Positions 1-49,200 of a stretch of DNA of 64,000 bases are shown piece after piece. Where the stretch lies: assembly GCA_004764695.1 (NCBI GenBank), contig SMSO01000037.1, positions 46,247 through 110,246 of the forward strand. The letters are read 5' to 3'. The notes below the pieces were generated by a model. The model was not told the origin of the DNA and ran no database searches. It saw nothing but the letters and a program-made list of their open reading frames with translations. This stretch comes from Schizochytrium sp. TIO01. Its lineage: Eukaryota; Sar; Bigyra; Thraustochytrida; Thraustochytriidae. The position numbers were made by a program, and so were the translations under genes. Every line of letters starts with the position of its first letter. The stretch's first letter is position 1.

Positions 1-631
1 CGGTCGCCCATGCCAGAAATTCAACTACGAGCTTTTTAACTGCAACAACTTTAGCATATGCTTCTGGAGCTGGAATTACCGCGGCTGCTGGCACCAGACT
101 TGCCCTCCAGTTGATCCTCGATGAGGGTTTTACATTGCTCTCATTCCGATAGCAAAACGCATACACGCTTCGCATCGATATTTCTCGTCACTACCTCGTG
201 GAGTCCACAGTGGGTAATTTACGCGCCTGCTGCTATCCTTGGATATGGTAGCCGTCTCTCAGGCTCCCTCTCCGGAGTCGAGCCCTAACTCTCCGTCACC
301 CGTTATAGTCACCGTAGTCCAATACACTACCGTCGACAACTGATGGGGCAGAAACTCAAACGATTCATCGACTAAAAAAGTCAATCTGCTCAATTATCAT
401 GATTCACCAATAAAATCGGCTTCAATCTAATAAGTGCAGCCCCATACAGGGCTCTTACGGCATGTATTATTTCCAGAATTACTGCAGGTATCCATATAAA
501 AGAAACTACCGAAGAAATTATTACTGATATAATGAGCCGTTCGCAGTCTCACAGTACAATCGCTTATACTTACACATGCATGGCTTAATCTTTGAGACGA
601 GCATATGACTACTGGCAGGATCAACCAGATT
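1..631 (-). rRNA. 18S (SSU) rRNA, 5' part, cut by the window edge
   Basis: The reverse complement begins at about 631 with the universal eukaryotic SSU 5' end (AATCTGGTTGATCCTGCCAG) and runs through helices with GCTCATTATATCAG, GGAGCCTGAGAGACGGC and CAGCAGCCGCGGTAATTCC (near 80-100). It leaves the window after about one third of a normal 1.8-kb SSU gene. Transcription is leftwards, so 5.8S and 28S would lie outside the window. The wording of the variable stretches resembles labyrinthulomycete 18S as I remember it. Identification as SSU rRNA is secure; the taxonomic reading is not. Confidence 0.97.
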
Positions 632-3692: not shown

Positions 3693-6600
3693 TCATTCAA
3701 AAATGTAAGGGCCCACCAATCGCAATGATTCACTAAAGGCAACGATTAAAGCTTCCAGTATATCAAGCTCTACTTTCTGCGTAGCAAGAAATTCCTCTTT
3801 CGAGCTCTGCTCACCATTACTGCTAGCAAGCAGACTCTGTCCAGAACGACTGAGTTTCACTGAAGATGGCATAGAAAGTGCATTGTTTACAGCATGTATA
3901 CAACCAAGCTCACGAGAGATCTGCTCAAGACTTGTCCTTCTTGTCTTTGCATAATAAATCTCTTCATTCAATTTCAGCTCCCTCTGTCCTTCATAGCTCA
4001 ATCTTAAACTAAGAATTAACAGACCAAATAGCATCATCTCCGTTCGTCAGTTAACAATTGAACCTCATCTAAGGTACCAAAGGAATGATAGTACAATTTC
4101 ATTTCTCCTTTGATGTGGTCATGCTCTCTGTTGCATCCACCCCAACCAAACAAGCAAAAACAGAATTAAACAAACAAGCAATCGAGTAAACTTGCTAAAC
4201 AAAACTGGACAAAAAAACACCAACCCACCCACCAACCAACAAAGCAAGGATCATGTACAAAAACGTCTTTGAGCTGCGGTGTTGCGTAGACAACTTACTC
4301 GAGTGATGTCAGCGACCGGTTCTCTTTCAGCGCCGCAGCCACTGCCTTGGCGCCCTCGTCGCCGATATTGTTGCCATAAAGACTGTCAATTTGATTAAAT
4401 GATGGCAACCAATACATTACATTGCAGTGCATTACATTAGATACATGCATGCATGGACGTGAGTGATCTAGGTTGGCTTTCAGCATTTATCTTTGTTGTG
4501 TTGTCATTTTGCTCTTTGTTCGATGCATGTATACTCACTCAAACAGACAACCCATCCATCCATCCATCCATCCATCAAACAAACAAACCAAACAAACAAG
4601 CAAGCGATTGCATAAACTTGCAAAAAAACACCGACCCACCCACCAAATAACAAACCAAGCATCATGTACAAACAAGTCCACGAGCTGCGCTGTTGCGTAG
4701 ACAACTTACGATAGTGATGTCAGGGACAGGTTCTCTTTCAGCGCCGCAGCCACTGCCTTGCCGCCCTCGTCGCCGATATCGTTGCCAAAAAGACTGTCGA
4801 TTTAATTGAATGATGGCAACCCATACATTACATTGCAATGCATTACATTGGATACATGCATGGACGTGAGTGATCTAGGTTGGCTTTCAGCTATTATCTT
4901 TGTTGTGTTGTCATTTTGCTCTTTGTTCGATGCATGTATACTCACTCAAACAGACAACTCATCCATTCATCAAACAAACAAGCGATTGCATAAACTTGCA
5001 AAACAACACCGACCCACCCACCAAACAACAAACCAAGCATCATGTACAAACAAGTCCACGAGCCGCGGTGTTGCGCAGACAACTTACACAAGTGATGTCA
5101 GCGACCGGTTCTCTTTCAGCGCCGCAGCCACTGCCTTGGCGCCCTCGTCGCCGATTTTGTTGTTATCAAGACTGTCGATTTGATTGAATGAGGGCAACCA
5201 ATACATTACACGTTACATATTACAATAGATGTACGCATGCATGCATGGACGTGAGTGATCTAGGTTGGCTGTCAGGATTTATCTTTGTTGTATTGTCATT
5301 TTGCTCTTTGTTCGATGGATGTGTACTCAAACAGACAACCTATCCATCCATCAAACAAACAAGAGATAGCATAAACTTGCAAAACAACACCGATCCACCC
5401 ACCAAACAACAAACCAAGCATCATGTACAAACACGTCCACGAGCTGCGCTGTTGCGAAGACAACTTACTCAAGTGATGTCAGCGACCGGTTCTCTTTCAG
5501 CGCCGCACCCACTGCCTTGGCGCCCTCGTCGCCGATTTTGTTGCTTTTAAGACTGTCGATTTGATTGAATGATGGCAAGCAGTACAATACACGTTACATA
5601 TTACAATAGATGCACGCATGCATGCATGGACGTGAGTGATCTAGGTTGGCTTTCAGCATTTATCTTTGTTGTGTTGTCATTTTGCTCTTTGTTCGATGCA
5701 TGTATACTCACTCAAACAGACAACCCATCCATCCATCAAACAAACAAGCGATTGCATGAACTTGCAAAACAACACAGATCCACCCATCAAACAACAAACC
5801 AAGCATCATGTACAAACACGTCCACGAGCTACGGTGTTGCGTAGACAACTTACTATAGTGATGTCAGCGACCGGTTCTCTTTCAGCGCCGCAGCCACTGC
5901 CTTGGCGCCCTCTGAGCCGATTTTGTTGCCTTCAAGACTGTCGATTTGATTGAATGATGGCAAGCAATACATTACACATTACATATTACATTAGATGCAC
6001 GCATGCATGCATGAACGTGAGTGATCTAGGTTGGCTTTCAGCATTTATCTTTGTTGTGTTGTCATTTTGCTCTTTGTTCGATGGATGTGTACTCACTCAA
6101 ACAGACAACTTATCCATCCATCCATCAAACAAACAAACAAACAAGCGATTGCATAAACTTGCAAAACAACACCGACCCACCCATCAAACAACAAACCAAG
6201 CATCATGTACAAACAAGTCCACGAGCTGCGGTGTTGCGTAGAAAACTTACTCAAGTGATGTCAGCGACCGGTTCTCTTTCAGCGCCGCACCCACTGCCTT
6301 GGCGCCCTCTGAGCCGATATGGTTAAATCGAAGACTGTCGATTTGATTGAATGATGGCAAGCAATACATTACACGTTACATATTACAATAGATGCACGCA
6401 TGTATGCATGGACGTGAGTAATCTAGGTTGGCTCTCAGCATCTTTCTTTGTTGTGTTGTCATTTTGCTCTTTGTTCGATGAATGTATACTCACTCAAACA
6501 GACAACCCATCCATCCATCAAACAAACAAGCGATTGCATAAACTTGCAAAACAACACCGACCCACCCACCAAACAACAAACCAAGCATAATGTACAAACA

Positions 6601-8510
6601 AGTCCACGAGCTGTGGGTGTTGCGTAGACAACTTACGATAGTGATGTCAGCGACCGGTTCTCCTTCAGCGCCGCACCCACTGCCTTGGCGCCCTCGTCGC
6701 CGATATAGTTGCCTTCAAGACTGTCGATTTGATTGAATGATGGCAAGCAATACATTACACGTTACACATTACAATAGATGCACGCATGCATGCATGGACG
6801 TGAGTGATCTAGGTTGGCTTTCAGCATTTATCTTTATTGTGTTGTCATTTTGCTCTTTGTTCGATGGATGTATACTCACTCAAACAGACAACCAATCCAT
6901 CCATCAAACAAACAAGCGATTGCATAAACTTGCAAAACAACACCGACCCACCCACCAAACAACAAACCAAGCATCATGTACAAACCACTCCACGAGCTGC
7001 GGTGTTGCGTAGACAACTTACGATAGTGATGTCAGCGACCGGTTCTCTTTCAGCGCCGCACCCACTGCCTTGGCGCCCTCGTCGCCAATTTCGTTATCCT
7101 GAAGACTGTCGATTTGATTGAATGATGGCAAGCAATACATTACACGTTACATATTACAATAGATGCACGCATGCATGCATGGACGTGAGTGATCTAGGCT
7201 GGCTTTCAGCATTTATCTTTGTTGTGTTGTCATTTTGCTCTTTGTTCGATGGATGTATACTCACTCAAACTGACAACTCATCCATCCATCAAACAAACAA
7301 GCGATTGCATAAACTTGCAAAACATCACTGACCAAAATAACACACCAACGAAGCAAGCATCATGTACAAACAAGTCCATGAGCTGCGGTGTTGCGTAGAC
7401 AACTTACGATAGTGATGTGAGCGACCGGTTCTCTTTCAGCGCCGCACCCACTGCCTTGGCGCCCTCGTCGCCGATATAGTTGCTTTGAAGACTGTCGATT
7501 TGATTGAATGATGGCAAGTAATACATTACATTGCAATGCATTACATTGGATACATGCATGGACGTGAGTGATCTAGGTTGGCTTTTAGGATTTCCTCTTT
7601 GTTGTGTTGCCATTTTGCTCTTTGTTCGATGGATGTATACTCACTCAAACAGACAACCCATCCATCCATCAAACAAACAAGCGATTGCATAAACTTGCAA
7701 AGCAACACCGACCCACCCACCAAACAACAAACCAAGAATCATGTACAAACAAGTCCACGAGCTGCGGTGTTGCGTAGACAACTTACTCAAGTGATGCCAG
7801 CGACCGGTTCTCTTTCAGCGCCGCACCCACTGCCTTGGCGCCCTCTGAGCCGATATGGTTGTGTTGAAGACTGTCGATTTGATTGAATGATGGCAAGCAA
7901 TACATTACACGTTACATATTAAAATAGATACACGCATGCATGCATGGACGTGAGTGATCTAGGTTGGCTTTCCGAATTTCATTCTTTGTTGTGTTGCCAT
8001 TTTGCTCTTTGTTCGATGGATGTATACTCAGTCAAACAGACAACTTATCTATCCATCAAACAAACAAGCGATTGCATAAACTTGCAAAACAACACCGACC
8101 CACCCACCAAACAACAAACCAAGCATCATGTACAAACAAGTCCACGAGCTGCGGTGTTGCGTAGACAACTTACTCAAGTGATGTCAGCGACCGGTTCTCT
8201 TTCAGCGCCGCAGCCACTGCCTTGCCGCCCTCTGAGCCGATATAGTTGCTTCTAAGACTGTCGATTTGATTGAATGATGGCAAGCAATACATTACGCGCA
8301 TGCATGCATGGAAGTGAGTGATCTAGGTTGGCTTTCAGCATTTCGCTTTGTTGTGTTGTCATTTTGCTCTTTGTTCGATGGATGTATACTCACTCAAACA
8401 GACAACTTATCCATTCATCCATCCATCCATCCATCCATCCATCAAACAAACAAACAAACCAGCCATTGCATAAACTTGCAAAACAATAACAACAAAAGCA
8501 ACACCGTGCA

Positions 8511-8586
<76 letters not shown>

Positions 8587-8667
8587 GAGCGTCTTAACTT
8601 ACTTCAGTGTTGTAGCGCCATTCTGAAGCTGTTCAAGGGCATAGACAACACGTGGGTGGTCTGACAT
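3693..8667 (-). CDS. 13-exon leucine-rich-repeat protein (RNase-inhibitor-type LRRs), one LRR per exon
   Basis: Exons in coding order: 8603-8667, 8174-8257, 7787-7870, 7408-7491, 7022-7105, 6637-6720, 6251-6334, 5854-5937, 5469-5552, 5088-5171, 4710-4793, 4299-4382, 3693-4008. They total 1,305 nt, giving 434 residues plus stop. Exon 1 starts at an ATG (MSDHPRVVYALEQLQNGATT) and ends in phase 2. The 11 internal exons are each exactly 84 nt, phase 2-2 and stop-free, with GTAAGT donors and CAG acceptors. Each encodes one 28-residue repeat, LxxNxIGDEGAKAVxAALKEN, followed by RSLTSLx. The last exon joins in frame (DLRLSYEGQREL) and gives a mostly helical, charged tail of about 104 residues with no family I recognise. 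No signal peptide or membrane segment is seen, so the protein is probably cytosolic. RI-type LRRs normally bind proteins; the partner here is unknown. Expression is not proven. Confidence 0.85.
4299..8602 (-). repeat. Tandem array of 11 exon-plus-intron cassettes, period about 378-411 bp
   Basis: Distances between successive exon starts are 411, 378, 381, 385, 397, 386, 385, 386, 379 and 387 bp. Introns (290-345 bp) are near-identical between units. Each contains, read on the plus strand, CATCCATC and AAACAAAC runs, a GCATGCATGCATGGACGTGAG block, the string TTGTTGTGTTGTCATTTTGCTC and the mirrored GTAAGT donor. Length differences come mainly from short-repeat copy number. The units belong to the LRR gene and are best explained by unequal crossing-over or gene conversion of an exon-intron module. 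Confidence 0.92.
8511..8586. repeat. (AAGC)n microsatellite inside intron 1 of the LRR gene
   Basis: About 19 uninterrupted AAGC units lie just downstream of the first donor site. A (CATC)n and (AAAC)n tract follows at about 8,411-8,458. No other cassette intron carries the AAGC expansion, so it arose after the cassettes duplicated. It is a likely length-polymorphic marker for this locus. Confidence 0.95.
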
Positions 8668-11600
8668 CGCGCAGCAAGTAACGATCTATACCTTAACTAG
8701 CGGGGGCGTGCGTGTGCCTTTTCAGCTAAGCTCGTGGCACAGTCCCAGTCGTTGCAGAAGGTTTCGAACCTGCTGGACGTAAAGCTGCAAGTCGATGATC
8801 GGGTTCTGCACACATGGTCTGACTTACTGAGTTATTATGGTTTTCCCTAAGAAGGAGATGCTTCTTAGTGCTCTCGAGGTAAAAGGATATTTTACTAGTT
8901 TGAACCTAACCTTGCCTACTCAGCCTCGGGCCCTGCACGTGTTTCTCGCTCTTTCAAGACTATTACTATTTCCTAGAGCCTCGTCCTAAAATATCTTATG
9001 CAGTGATATTGCTCCAGAAGTTCCAGCAATACTACCCCTTAGTACTACCTATTATGAACTAGATAGTCATAGAAGTAAGAAGTAAACAGCAACCCATTTA
9101 ATACTAAGTATATATAGAGTACGCACCAATTTGTTAGTACATTCGATCATACCACGCGGGTAACACCTCATCTCATTCGCACTGAGAAGTAAAGTCGCGT
9201 AGGGCCGGGTCAGTAGTATGATAGGGGACTGCATGCGAAGCCCCGGTGTTGAATGTTTTTTTCGTATGAAAGCAACTCCACGGTTCAATAATTTTGGTGG
9301 CGCATACTCAAAAGAGATAGATACGTCAGCAATGTTATCATCTCGCGGAACGCACTGTGCTTGTTTTTAATCGAGTAAATCCTTTGCACGCATGGCAAGG
9401 TTTGCATATTAAATTACCCTTGATGTGAGCCAAGAGAGCAGAATCGACGAGACTGACAGCATTGTGACTGACGCTTCACCAAAGGAACAATGTTTTTGAC
9501 AGTCTTCTGGGGCTTTGCATTTCTAGCGAACCACTCATCCTGTACTTCGTCTCTGTCAAATATTGAAATCGCATTTGTCTCCTTCTATAAGTTGTTTGCC
9601 TCTTCAGCCGTGTATTTCGAAAATTAAATAATAATTGTCTTGCTCTAAAAAGAAATGTCTTGACACAACAGTTACCTTTTCTGATTTCAAAAGTACGGAC
9701 CACTCACACCTCTGCTTCTGAAACCTTTTAAAGTTGGCAACTCATTCAATTGTTACCAAGTATACATGTATGTTCTGCTGTGCTTTGTTCTTGAGCCACC
9801 TAGCGTTAGTGCGGTCTAAAAAAATATTGAACACTGTCATAATCATAAAATGATTTGCTTGCGTAGCTCTAATCAAATACTACTACAGCATGAAAGATAG
9901 TAAGCAAATATACTTTGGTTAGTTCAATTGAAATCTGGTACGGTTGTTCTAGCAAGGATACTAGTGCAAGCATTAGGGATTTGTCTACTTCAATCAATCG
10001 AACCTTAACTTAAAGGAGGAAGAATCTGGTCCATGTGGTGGATCTTGATTGCTGGGGATCGAGAGATCTTGCTCGACCCCTTGTGTTTGCAAGCCCTTAT
10101 TGTTCTAGTTTCTCTTCTGCTCTGCCGTTTTGAAAGCCAGGAGATAAGCACTTGCTTGGAAGAAACTCTGCCTCACCCGCCGCTTCTAAGAGGTCCTTCC
10201 TCGTCGTTCACAAACGGAACAGTTTAGACGATCTCTGGATTTGCAAATCAAAGTCTCTGTGGCAATACACTGTTCAATAAGACTGTTGTGTCGAAAGAGG
10301 ACAATCGATTAGGGCTCTTTAAAGCTTTCTCTACCTCTCGAGACGATAACTTCACTAGCAGAACAACAATACACTATGAAGCATCGAGTCAGAGCAACAG
10401 AGACACAAGATCTATTTTTTACGGAACCTAAGCACTACGAAATGAAGGCGGGTCAAACAACTGCTCGGCAGACTAGCAATACACCTAGACCGAGGCGGTG
10501 TCCGAATGATCTTTCAGAAGAAGGATGGGTGGGTGGGGTACTGACGACTGGAAAATATGTAAGTGGAGGATTTCTCGGCCATGAAGTTGTACCTATGCTT
10601 TTGGAAAGGAAAGTTCCGCCTTCACAAGTCGCGATTGTTTTTATTGCTCTCACCCAGGCTGGACTCTTCACTGCTTAACATCGTTAGGGATGCCACAAGG
10701 TTTATTCTCAAGCAGTGACACGAGATAACCTATCAAACATTTACTTGGCTATTTCACGAGTATATTGGCGAGACACACTTGCCCCTGAGTAAGATTCAAT
10801 AGCCTTCCTTCTTCAACACGGACATTCTCGGTCAAGGCAGAGCTCAGGCCTTGAAGGGCGCATCGACCATATGTCTAAGATTGAAATCAAAAGTTACGGA
10901 GGATCAGCAAGCGTGGCTTCGAAGTGTGTTGGGTACTGAGATCGTGAATTACAAACTCGAATACTTATGGTTCGTGGACCGGCCCAAGATGGCCGGCGGC
11001 TACAGAATTGGTGTGGCAAAGGTGGTATGGAAGAGTGAAGAAAAGTTTGCTATGGATAGTTCAATGTACGTGGTCACCTTGTCACGCACCGTTCCATGAA
11101 GCTGGATCGAATACTTCATTCTTCAGAATTGAAGATACTGGTCCTCTGAAGGCATAATATAAAAGTTCAGATATCATTGGCTACCCGGGTATCTTAAAGT
11201 CTTGGCAAAGTTGGAAGTATCTCGTGGTGATATCCAACCCTAAAGTGTTGCGTATTTCTGGGTGAAGACGTCGAAGTGCTTTCACAGCCGAAAGTTATCA
11301 TCAGAGCAATCGGTCGAGGACAGGGATATCTTTTAGTGATAATATTACCTCTATGGCGTCAAGAGTAGGCCTGCGCACATGCGTTACAAGAAAGCATGAA
11401 TTCGATTCGATCAATTGATCACAGTGAACAGTTGTTGTGCGAGCCAGAGTCCCCAAAGCAGGAAGTACTTGCAGTTCGCGAAATACCATGTATCGCTGCT
11501 TGTTCTCCAGATACGCAGTGCTACAAAGAGTTTTGCAAACAGTATGATGCAAAGAAGCTTTATATGTCATGCGCAACACGAATTGAACTACTTTGATGAG

Positions 11601-13233: not shown

Positions 13234-13770
13234 CTATAACAAGTGTAAGTGGCCCTCCAATACACGCAGCTGTTGGCCCGTCTCAAGGTTCCAGATGCGC
13301 ACAGTTTGGTCTTCTGACCCAGAAACCACAGTGTTAGTGACAACACTCACAGCCATAGTAGTGACGCTTTCAGAGTGGCCATTCGTTGATCCAAATATAC
13401 TCCGCTTCTGGTCCGTCTCAAGGTCCCAGATGCACACGGTTTGGTCATCTGCATCTGACCCACAAACCAAATTATTGGTAGCATCATTCACAGCCACATT
13501 CCTGACCAAACCACCGAGGCCCTTAAATATATTTCGCTGTTGGCCAGTCTCAATATCCCAGATGCGCACTGTCTGATTATATGACCTAGAAACCACAGTC
13601 TTGGTGGCATCACTCACAGCCACACTGGTGACTCCGCCAGAGCGTTCTCCGCTATGCAAGAACAGATTTTCAAATGCCAGATCGGCGACCTCCAGCATGC
13701 CTATCCAGATGCCTCCGCTGTCCGGTAGAGGGGTCAACTTCAACAGGCTGGGCTTCCGTGCCCTACTAGA
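13234..13770 (-). pseudogene. Truncated WD40-repeat gene fragment
   Basis: One open stretch bounded by stops encodes three WD40-like blades, with signatures QTVRIWDIETGQQ, QTVCIWDLETDQK and QTVRIWNLETGQQ. Each is preceded by a VTSVAVSDATKTVVS-like strand. It ends after LEGHLHLL where another blade would be expected, and the 5' side begins at a stop codon without an ATG. Three blades cannot close a propeller. It is therefore a fragment of a longer gene, or one exon of a gene whose other exons I cannot find. The low-divergence repeats resemble repetitive WD40 proteins of large families. Confidence 0.6.
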
Positions 13771-46207: not shown

Positions 46208-49200
46208 CTCTGCAGGGAATGTAATATGACAGTTTTATAAATTCTTTGTTAGCGTTCCTAACAAGTTTCCTCCTTTTCTTTTCCTGGCAGAAAGAAGGAA
46301 ATCTGGTGTCGTATGCGATGATGATGCCGTGGAATTTAAACGAGCCGAAGGAGTCACATACTAACTTCAACAGGGTGTGATCTTTACCTGCAGCCAACGA
46401 GAACTGAAAAATGAAGGCTGTGGATCGATTTGAACCACGATTTACCCTCGTCCATAGGCACCTCTGATCAAGCCAGGCTGCGATTACCACAAATGAATTC
46501 GAGGGACGCAGAGCTGCGGAAAGCTGATCCCGGCCAATTTGGCAAGCTTAGCAAAAGATCGGGCTACACACGAACTTGAAATGCATAAATTTCAGTTTCT
46601 GGCTTTCTCTTGATTCTTTTTCTCTACCCGAGAGCTAGTTCGCTAGCGCGATTTCTGTGAGGTGACGCTTACATACCGATTTCTACCTTACAACTACTGA
46701 TTTCCCTCCCAGCTTGAAATAGCTCGTTTACCAGGCTTTTATAATCCCTACCGGTTATAACCAACATCAATCATGAACAGAAGAAGTGAAACATTTAAGA
46801 CTGTGTCCACGACACTATTATGTCCCTTGGAAGACGGGCAAGAATAGCCTGAAAGCGCGGAACCCTGCTTGAGTATTTTCATAAATGCATCTCTTTTCTT
46901 GTCTGTTTCATCTCTATATTTCATCTATCCACAGCAACCAGACTTTCATACACGTTGCAGATAAAACCCAATTGCTTTCATTTCAGAGAAGAAATCGACA
47001 ACAAGAAAACTTAACGAGGAATGGAATCCGAACTAGGTATTCTTATGCAATATATATTTGTATAAAAATGTTTTATTCACAATTTTGTGTACCTAATACT
47101 ACTAATACTGCTATTAGTAGTATTTATTTATTTAAAAAATGAATTTTTACTTTAAACTTTTTGTTTTTAATTAAAACATCCTTGTATTAAAAAAAACGAT
47201 CCGCAAGTGTTTCTTGCAGCAGGGTGAGTAACCAGCCAACTCTGAACCATCTCCTGCTCCTTTTCCCCTTGACGAGCCTATGCGAAGAAACAGGCTTCTG
47301 CTACGAGACGACAACAATAAGCAATAAAGAAATCTTCCTTGTGATTTTGCAGCGTGGATAATTAAAGAAAAAGGAAAGCGCACTGTTTGATCTGATTAAA
47401 GAGAACCGACGTCCTTTGTCTGCCGCTGCTTTCCAAGCCATGCTTTAGTAAAGCTTCTTACGAGTGCGAGTAAGCGAAACATTTATTTGAAGACTTTTTC
47501 ATTCTTCGTCGAATGCATCGAGCGGCACCAATTACTGGCAACAAAGGCACATTGGAACCGTGCTTAATGGCTGAGCATAGCTAGAACATAGTACTTACAA
47601 ATAAGCTATATTCCGGATATTCATGTTGTTGTTGCAATGCTTGAAATCATGAATCTAGACAGGTAGAAGATGGCTAAGCTGAGACATCTTCACAGTGCTC
47701 AAGTATTTAAAAGAAAGTGATAAGAGTGAGTTTAGCGTATCCCCTTTCGTTCCTTTATAGTATGTATGTATTTATCATAAAGCTGTCACTTCTGCATTTG
47801 AGGCGATCCTATTCTTTCTTCAGAAGAGCTAAACAAAACAAAAAAATCAAATCAAATCGAATCGAATCGAATCGAATCAATTCAAACCCAAACCCTCAGA
47901 TACGCTTTACAGGGAAGCTAGTTTGCTAGGCCTGATAGTGTATTTTTCATTTCGCATGCCTTTAAGATATGAACGCCATCATCTTTCTGGTGGTAGCAGC
48001 TCAGTATATCGTAGGAATTCTAATGCAAGGGAATGGACCAATTGGAAAAGCAAAGGAAACAAGAAGCTTGTGAACAAAGTTCCACCCTGTTGCTTCGAGA
48101 CGAATTCCTCGGGCCTTGCCATTCATCTTGTCGATGTTGTTCTATGTACAAGATTTTGAATCGCCTGATATTGGCCTGAATATGATTGATCGTACAGAAT
48201 TTCTCGGAGTTTCATATACAAAGAGGATAAAGATAATGCAATGCATGATCGCATTTCACCTCGGCAAATAATGTTCTTATCCTCTGAACATAGGTATGCA
48301 TTAACGCAAGCGAAAATTGTTAAATCTTACTGTGATATCTTAAAGAAGTGCAGAAACGCCCTTGGCTTCAGGCTTTATTTGGCAGGTTAATATCAAGTGT
48401 TCTTTTTTTGCTCAACCTAGTTTCAAACAATTTTTCGCTCAGCACCATATAATCTAGCCTAACGTTGCAAAGTTTGCAATCACATTCTTGAGCTGATGAT
48501 GTTGTGATTTTCTTCCGCAAATGCAAAGAATATATTTGGTTTTGCATAGTTGTTCTCTAAGGACAAAGGAGAGAAAAGAAAAGAGCAGCAATACGCATCC
48601 TGCCTACTAATAACTTTGAACAGGGTGGGCCCACAGCCAGTGAGACAATAAAGAAGAATACAGTCTAATGCATCAGTATCACGAAACCTGTTTAATATGC
48701 CACTTGAATTCTCTAGCTACCTATGTCTTCTAGGAACCTGCATCGCAGTTCTTAGCGCCGGTTTTATATTTTTATTTTGCGTTGTTGGGTTCTAATCGAA
48801 AACTGAAGAAAAGAGGTACATATGAAGTCAGCCTCTTTTCTAGGATTGGTCTCTCTTTAGCCTCCCATCCTTAAATTAGGTTTTTCTGCATTTCTATTTC
48901 TTAAAAAATAAATGCTGTTGTTAAAAAATGAAATTTCAATCAACTGTAATACATTGTGGATAAGTGATGACAAGGTTAACTGGAGGGTGAGTCGAGGCCG
49001 TTACCAAACAAACAAAAACAAACACGAGGGTGGAAGCAAATTGGAGGCAGACACTCGACACTGTAGACTACTGTTGCGATCCCCATCTTCTTAACTTGGC
49101 GAGGCTGGGCACTACAAATATTTTATCCGCCCGAGGTTACGGGAGAACTCTGAGGTTCAAAGTTGATCATGCCTCGCCACACGTGGAAAATTCTGAATTT

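Follow-up and report, generated by a model that had tools for sequence, protein, structure and literature searches.

A predicted leucine-rich repeat gene family with one repeat per exon and four hypervariable codons in Schizochytrium sp. TIO01

Near one end of contig SMSO01000037.1 of the thraustochytrid Schizochytrium sp. TIO01, a stretch of 64,000 nt (positions 46,247 to 110,246 of the forward strand, hereafter the window) contains a tandem array of roughly 385-bp units. Such an array raises the question of whether it is repetitive DNA or a gene and, if it is a gene, why its units are so alike. We read the array as a spliced gene of a dispersed family of leucine-rich repeat (LRR) recognition receptors, whose repeats, as exon cassettes, would be exchanged throughout the genome, with four codons of each repeat diversifying. 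The probability of this reading, which is drawn from sequence comparisons, we put at about 0.6. The underlying organisation into a gene and its cassettes, with the splicing that it predicts, is very likely correct.

Gene model and genome-wide family

Thirteen exons on the minus strand (window 3693-8667) join into a frame of 1,305 nt that encodes 434 amino acids and a stop. The exons measure 65 nt, eleven times exactly 84 nt (phase 2) and 316 nt, the introns range from 290 to 345 nt, and every 84-nt exon is flanked by a CAG acceptor and a GTAAGT donor. A preliminary description of this DNA proposed the same structure, and its coordinates, exon sizes, phase and frame are all reproduced here with two corrections: the 435 codons that it counted include the stop, leaving 434 residues, and the CAG acceptor holds for the eleven 84-nt exons, the acceptor of the last exon being CTTAG. 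Tandem Repeats Finder (TRF) describes the array as 10.9 copies with a period of 385 bp and 89% matches. Because each repeat is a symmetric phase-2 exon set in a near-standard 300-nt intron, whole cassettes could be added, removed or swapped in any number with the frame kept intact. An AAGC tetranucleotide run lies in intron 1 (window 8511-8590), and TTGC- or TCGG-type runs occupy the same place in other arrays.

The family was searched for in the 64.06-Mb, 37-contig assembly, where the window is C36:46247-110246. A last-exon query of 104 residues finds 53 matches, 46 of which span at least 86 residues without a stop, and a 385-bp cassette query finds at least 391 matches, the roughly 150 matches listed being 92-100% identical. 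All 20 last-exon loci examined carry 84-nt LRR exons just upstream, and 58 of the 60 exons that form their last three LRR exons are intact. Eleven arrays (the window, L041-L045 and L054-L058) were examined in full or nearly so; the two sets share several arrays, so that 58/60 and the 165/166 given below are not additive. BLAST, used without a splice-site criterion, located 166 LRR exons in the eleven arrays, and 165 of them are 84 nt long, stop-free and bordered by AG and GT, with a GTAAGT donor in 163 and a CAG acceptor in 164. The pattern is thus more than chance would give. The arrays hold 7-21 repeats each. In all ten arrays with exon 1 in range the frame is divisible by three and has no internal stop (975-2,157 nt), the last-exon acceptor in these models being the first AG that opens a long phase-2 frame, as picked by a script; the eleventh array, L055, stops at a contig end and its exon 1 lies outside the view. 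Exon 1 of the ten arrays is 62 or 65 nt long with constant phase, and together with the 250 bp upstream it is 84-98% alike among the first five paralogs compared. Introns measure 264-390 nt.

Traces of duplication are visible in several places. In L055 a block of several cassettes is duplicated with its variable codons unchanged, and one copy of one exon is frameshifted. The loci L022 and L023, and likewise L029 and L030, lie on different contigs and have the same last three LRR exons, pointing to recent duplications or to separate haplotype contigs. Searches of two other collections, which used close-match patterns and are both unlikely to contain this lineage, confirmed no relatives among 52 pattern matches in viral_contigs and 16 in genome_contigs, and none of the listings found by searches of open-licence PubMed Central (PMC) papers seemed to concern this family.

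The 434-aa product matches Pfam LRR_6 in 11 stretches (E 1.4e-82). Its 28-residue repeats follow the ribonuclease-inhibitor (RI) type, LxxLxLxxNxIxxxGxxxLxxxLxxN, and its match among PDB sequences is ribonuclease inhibitor 1dfj (E 2.7e-36), NLRP chains and axonemal LRR proteins also being matched. The earlier proposal, in which each 84-nt exon of a 13-exon gene encodes a single RI-type LRR of 28 residues, thus stands, given the Pfam score, the intact exons, the ten open frames and the conservation of exon 1 and the last exon. No NACHT, NB-ARC, Roc-COR or TIR domain is among the 15 Pfam families (E up to 10) returned for the product as modelled, a model that leaves room for exons upstream of exon 1. 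Exon 13 finds no family at a meaningful score in Pfam, NCBIfam, PHROGs or PDB sequences; PGAP1_2nd, at E 0.05-0.11, falls below the cut-off. This exon can also be read as a separate 114-aa open reading frame (ORF) with its own ATG, so that one part of a gene which the preliminary description expected ORF finders and repeat maskers to miss does show up as an ORF. A separate short gene is disfavoured, since all 20 loci have an LRR array just ahead of the exon and the 10 complete arrays have it in phase.

Variation within and between the cassettes

Across the 165 intact exons, amino-acid heterozygosity is highest at codons 2 (.91), 3 (.86) and 5 (.86). Codon 8 is S or D (.54), codon 15 is A or G (.44), and none of the other 22 codons exceeds.24. 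Codon 28, which is split by the intron, is mostly N, S or D. The arrays consist of homogenised repeats with few hypervariable codons, the pattern known from HNWD-type genes. In an LRR solenoid, the x positions of the xLxxNx motif lie on the beta strand and the following loop and line the concave face. We take codons 2, 3, 5 and 28 to be these x positions, and their residues would hence lie on the concave face.

Pairs were drawn from 143 cassettes, those of the 165 intact exons that stand neither first nor last in their array, with codons 8 and 15 set aside from the other exon bases. The share of differing sites is.599 for the 12 hypervariable bases (codons 2, 3 and 5 and the 27/28 junction) and.036 for the 66 other exon bases; for the flanking introns it is.052 within genes and.054 between genes. 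Some of the statistics (intron divergence and clustering, the tie between codons 27 and 28, and the synonymous comparison) cover the first six arrays; there, intron divergence is.048, against a synonymous divergence of the conserved codons of.044 without codon 27 and.078 with it. The intron around each repeat thus roughly keeps pace with synonymous sites in the conserved codons, so that each cassette carries its own clock.

Hypervariable and flank distance are nearly uncorrelated (Spearman.046, 10,153 pairs), and the hypervariable distance is 6.90 of 12 at 1.5-2% flank divergence and 7.0-7.6 at larger distances, which amounts to a plateau. Only five pairs, all within a gene, have less than 1% flank divergence; two are identical at the hypervariable bases and the others differ at 1, 4 and 10 of the 12. 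Cassette L042_3 and its neighbour L042_4 agree at all 66 other exon bases, yet they differ at 10 of the 12 hypervariable ones and at 6 intron bases. With the L055 array left out, the association between intron sites is.23-.26 at 3-12 nt,.13 at 13-29 nt and.02 at 30-79 nt, and hypervariable bases reach.05 at 3-6 nt and.018 at 7-12 nt. This fading with distance suggests that cassettes exchange short tracts genome-wide and that the variable codons turn over faster still.

There are no stops among the 495 codons at positions 2, 3 and 5, and silent alternatives are rare (T 78 and C 3 at codon 5, C 70 and T 3 at codon 3), which argues for selection on the protein. We favour diversifying selection combined with frequent gene conversion of older variants. 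Steady untargeted hypermutation is weakened as an explanation by the rare silent T/C changes and by the unchanged L055 duplicates.

5S rRNA pairing and chromosomal position

A 5S ribosomal RNA (rRNA) gene stands head-to-head with the LRR gene of the window (Table 1), and the same holds for nine of the ten arrays with exon 1 in view, the distance to the ATG being 438-472 bases. The paired arrays are the window, L041, L042, L044, L045, L054, L056 and L058, together with L057, for which the pairing follows from positions; L043 has no 5S match within the 703 bases upstream that are in view. Among the 47 5S genes listed, an incomplete set that lacks the window's own, 28 stand in divergent arrangement to a last-exon match 0.8-12 kb away and one has a last-exon match that is otherwise arranged. 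Pairing of every 5S gene with the family is ruled out, as 19 of the 47 have no last-exon match so placed. Exon 1 is absent at the three unpaired 5S places examined, and two of the 19 (C30:70919 and C13:4088720) may still adjoin an LRR array, judging by exon matches. Some 5S genes form same-strand pairs about 12.5-13 kb apart (C30:70919/83444, C33:1945987/1958511, C34:2961146/2974211 and C7:1027717/1040686). In each pair one member adjoins an LRR array and the other does not, exon 1 having been searched for at C33:1945987 and C30:83444 only; these pairs look like parts of a larger duplicated unit. The papers returned by searches of the open-licence PMC literature, a single one of these searches being directed at this point, contain no report of a head-to-head pairing of 5S and LRR genes.

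The family is concentrated towards contig ends. On contigs longer than 1 Mb, 22 of 40 last-exon matches lie within 100 kb of an end, a zone that makes up 4.3% of the sequence, and 15 of the 40 sit more than 400 kb from an end; these counts rest on 24 of the 37 contigs (61.1 Mb), whose ends are not proven telomeres. Thirteen further last-exon matches are on smaller contigs. Transcription is directed towards the end in 17 of the 23 matches within 200 kb of one. The array of the window had been called subtelomeric, and it does lie about 50-55 kb from the start of C36; the first 10 kb of that contig contain no TTAGGG or TTTAGGG, so that its end is not established as a telomere.

The window also contains an actin ORF and a eukaryotic 18S rRNA gene. 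Matches to 28S rRNA follow at roughly 41.4-43.8 kb of this contig (L019 5107-7512), on the minus strand like the 18S, which places a ribosomal DNA unit about 3 kb past the LRR array and roughly 41-47 kb in from the contig end. At 13234-13743, on the minus strand, a 169-aa ORF shows by eye WD40-like repeats of the TVVSGSEDQTVRIW type and has no NCBIfam match.

Table 1. Coordinates of the LRR gene, its exons and the neighbouring rRNA genes, numbered from the first base of the window.
Feature	Position	Strand	Basis
Exon 1, half-repeat cap, 65 nt, ATG, MSDHPRVVYALEQLQNGATTL	8603..8667	-	joined frame; homologous exon 1 in 9 further arrays
LRR exon 2, 84 nt, phase 2-2	8174..8257	-	stop-free, splice borders
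LRR exon 3	7787..7870	-	stop-free, splice borders
LRR exon 4	7408..7491	-	stop-free, splice borders
LRR exon 5	7022..7105	-	stop-free, splice borders
LRR exon 6	6637..6720	-	stop-free, splice borders
LRR exon 7	6251..6334	-	stop-free, splice borders
LRR exon 8	5854..5937	-	stop-free, splice borders
LRR exon 9	5469..5552	-	stop-free, splice borders
LRR exon 10	5088..5171	-	stop-free, splice borders
LRR exon 11	4710..4793	-	stop-free, splice borders
LRR exon 12	4299..4382	-	stop-free, splice borders
Exon 13 (last exon, 316 nt), encoding the conserved C-terminal ~100 aa and the stop	3693..4008	-	53 matches in the same genome
Tandem array, ~385-bp cassettes (84-nt exon + ~300-nt intron)	4202..8419		TRF
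5S rRNA gene, 471 bases from the ATG of the LRR gene and head-to-head with it	9139..9257	+	Rfam RF00001, 96.5 bits
18S rRNA gene, 5' part	1..631	-	rRNA matches

Rival readings, known systems and meaning

In a recognition-receptor family of the kind proposed, recombination, at one locus or across loci, would use the near-identical introns to create new combinations of repeats, and diversifying selection would maintain the differences among concave residues. The LRR product may act inside the cell and bind foreign or non-self molecules, an intracellular location being proposed because exon 1 resembles no signal peptide by eye, and the conserved C-terminal 100 aa may serve as a shared signalling or partner-binding part. 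Near chromosome ends the head-to-head 5S gene may keep the promoter open, and it may also act as a further homology anchor. Several observations weigh against this reading. No recognisable signalling domain is present in the 434-aa product, and the C-terminal exon is weakly constrained (median dN/dS, the ratio of nonsynonymous to synonymous substitution rates,.72 in 136 pairs). The exons that are broken (1 of 166 in the eleven arrays, 2 of 60 in the 20 loci) indicate that some family members may be decaying. The intron nearest neighbour belongs to the same gene in 21 of 69 cases where 12.1 are expected (maximum of 2,000 shuffles, 24; six arrays), so that introns do cluster slightly by gene. 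At the variable codons, amino-acid-changing and silent one-step codon pairs stand at 62:14, 48:9 and 32:5, a mild excess over the 2.8, 3.4 and 4.1 to 1 that mutation alone would give, and synonymous alternatives are commoner there (74/495) than at conserved codons (84/3,329), so that mutation, or alleles of long standing, may account for part of the excess. In codon 27 the third base, a synonymous site, is itself hypervariable and tied to codon 28, which speaks against selection as the whole cause.

This last observation would fit a process, either localised mutation or the copying of short tracts, that targets both ends of each exon, rather than selection on ordinary mutations. So would the early plateau of hypervariable distance and its near independence of flank distance, the contrast within the pair L042_3 and L042_4 (10/12 against 0/66), and the loss of association between hypervariable bases 3-12 nt apart while intron sites keep theirs. 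However, very recent L055 duplicates keep the same variable codons (two of the five pairs below 1% are identical), silent T/C alternatives are rare and stops do not occur, and we regard such a process as improbable. The products could instead be LRR-only proteins with another binding role, such as adhesion, a flagellar or cytoskeletal scaffold, or inhibition of foreign enzymes in the manner of ribonuclease inhibitor, diversified for partners other than pathogens or non-self. The matches to axonemal LRR proteins and ribonuclease inhibitor and the lack of NACHT, NB-ARC, Roc-COR and TIR domains among the 15 Pfam families suit this alternative, but extreme variability of four codons and a family of this size are in our judgement unusual for scaffolds; we consider it unlikely, though deserving of serious weight. 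A tandem, homogenised array with a few broken exons and a weakly constrained last exon might also be satellite DNA or a decaying repeat whose open frames are accidental. Against this, exons are intact in 165 of 166 cases, all ten testable arrays have a complete frame, the 495 variable codons hold no stop, exon length is fixed while 81 of 155 introns deviate from the modal length of 301 nt, and at the 22 other codons the proportion of nonsynonymous differences (pN.032) is below that of synonymous ones (pS.078), so that we reject this reading as very improbable. Coding on the opposite strand is rejected with still greater assurance: plus-strand ORFs of up to 125 aa do recur along the array, but it is the minus strand that gives canonical LRRs with a 28-residue period and 13 exons in frame, and the last exon is conserved as a minus-strand protein.

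Parts of this picture are familiar from other systems. Ribonuclease inhibitor and the NLRP-type LRRs share the 28-residue RI-type repeat and offer the best known fold match by sequence, but they are not arrays of nearly identical repeats. Lamprey variable lymphocyte receptors are built from LRR modules with hypervariable concave residues and are somatically assembled from cassettes. The likeness to them, as read from one genome assembly, lies in the LRR modules with hypervariable residues at predicted concave positions. The preliminary description knew of no tandem array with near-identical introns in a protist subtelomere. The layout of one LRR per exon is known from brown algal ROCO genes, which, according to PMC11378527 (citing Zambounis et al. 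2012), have one LRR per phase-2 exon, exon shuffling, alternative splicing and four positively selected concave-face sites, and are candidate immune receptors; LRR-only genes with shuffling exons occur in brown algae too. The exon layout is therefore, as far as that source goes, not new for protists of this kind. The present family shares the symmetric phase-2 exon with one LRR, but the brown algal exons of that account are 72 nt long and belong to another LRR class, and the genes carry a ROC-COR GTPase domain that is absent from the 434-aa product; near-identical genome-wide introns and a 5S partner are not mentioned in the sections consulted. In Podospora HNWD genes (het-d, het-e) and other fungal NLRs, as described in PMC12222747 and PMC4986451, repeats stay near-identical through concerted evolution, repeat number varies, and about four hypervariable codons per HNWD-type repeat are under diversifying selection at the binding face. 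Homogenised repeats with few hypervariable codons and variable repeat number recur here. By the same accounts, the fungal repeats are of the WD40, ANK or TPR type with no LRR found in fungal NLRs, they belong to a NACHT or NB-ARC architecture that the 434-aa product lacks, and their variation clusters essentially by gene, which it hardly does here, where each repeat is a separate exon within introns. With no ROC-COR and no NACHT in its 434-aa product, the gene of the window is a member of neither family, but its mode of action may resemble both.

A bolder possibility, which we offer as speculation and think improbable, is that a unicellular eukaryote actively generates recognition diversity. 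Its genome would hold hundreds of interchangeable LRR cassettes in dozens of loci, of which many lie at chromosome ends and face 5S genes head-to-head. Recombination in the standard introns would re-sort the cassettes, and a process centred on four codons per exon would retarget them, either in the germline or among clonal cells; exon skipping would add further combinations. As a recognition-receptor family, the arrays would unite in one gene family the LRR exon shuffling of brown algae and the homogenised repeats with few hypervariable codons of fungal NLRs. The clock within each cassette would make the shares of selection, gene conversion and local mutation in receptor diversity directly measurable, and from the head-to-head pairing with 5S genes follows a prediction on expression at chromosome ends that is simple and open to test.

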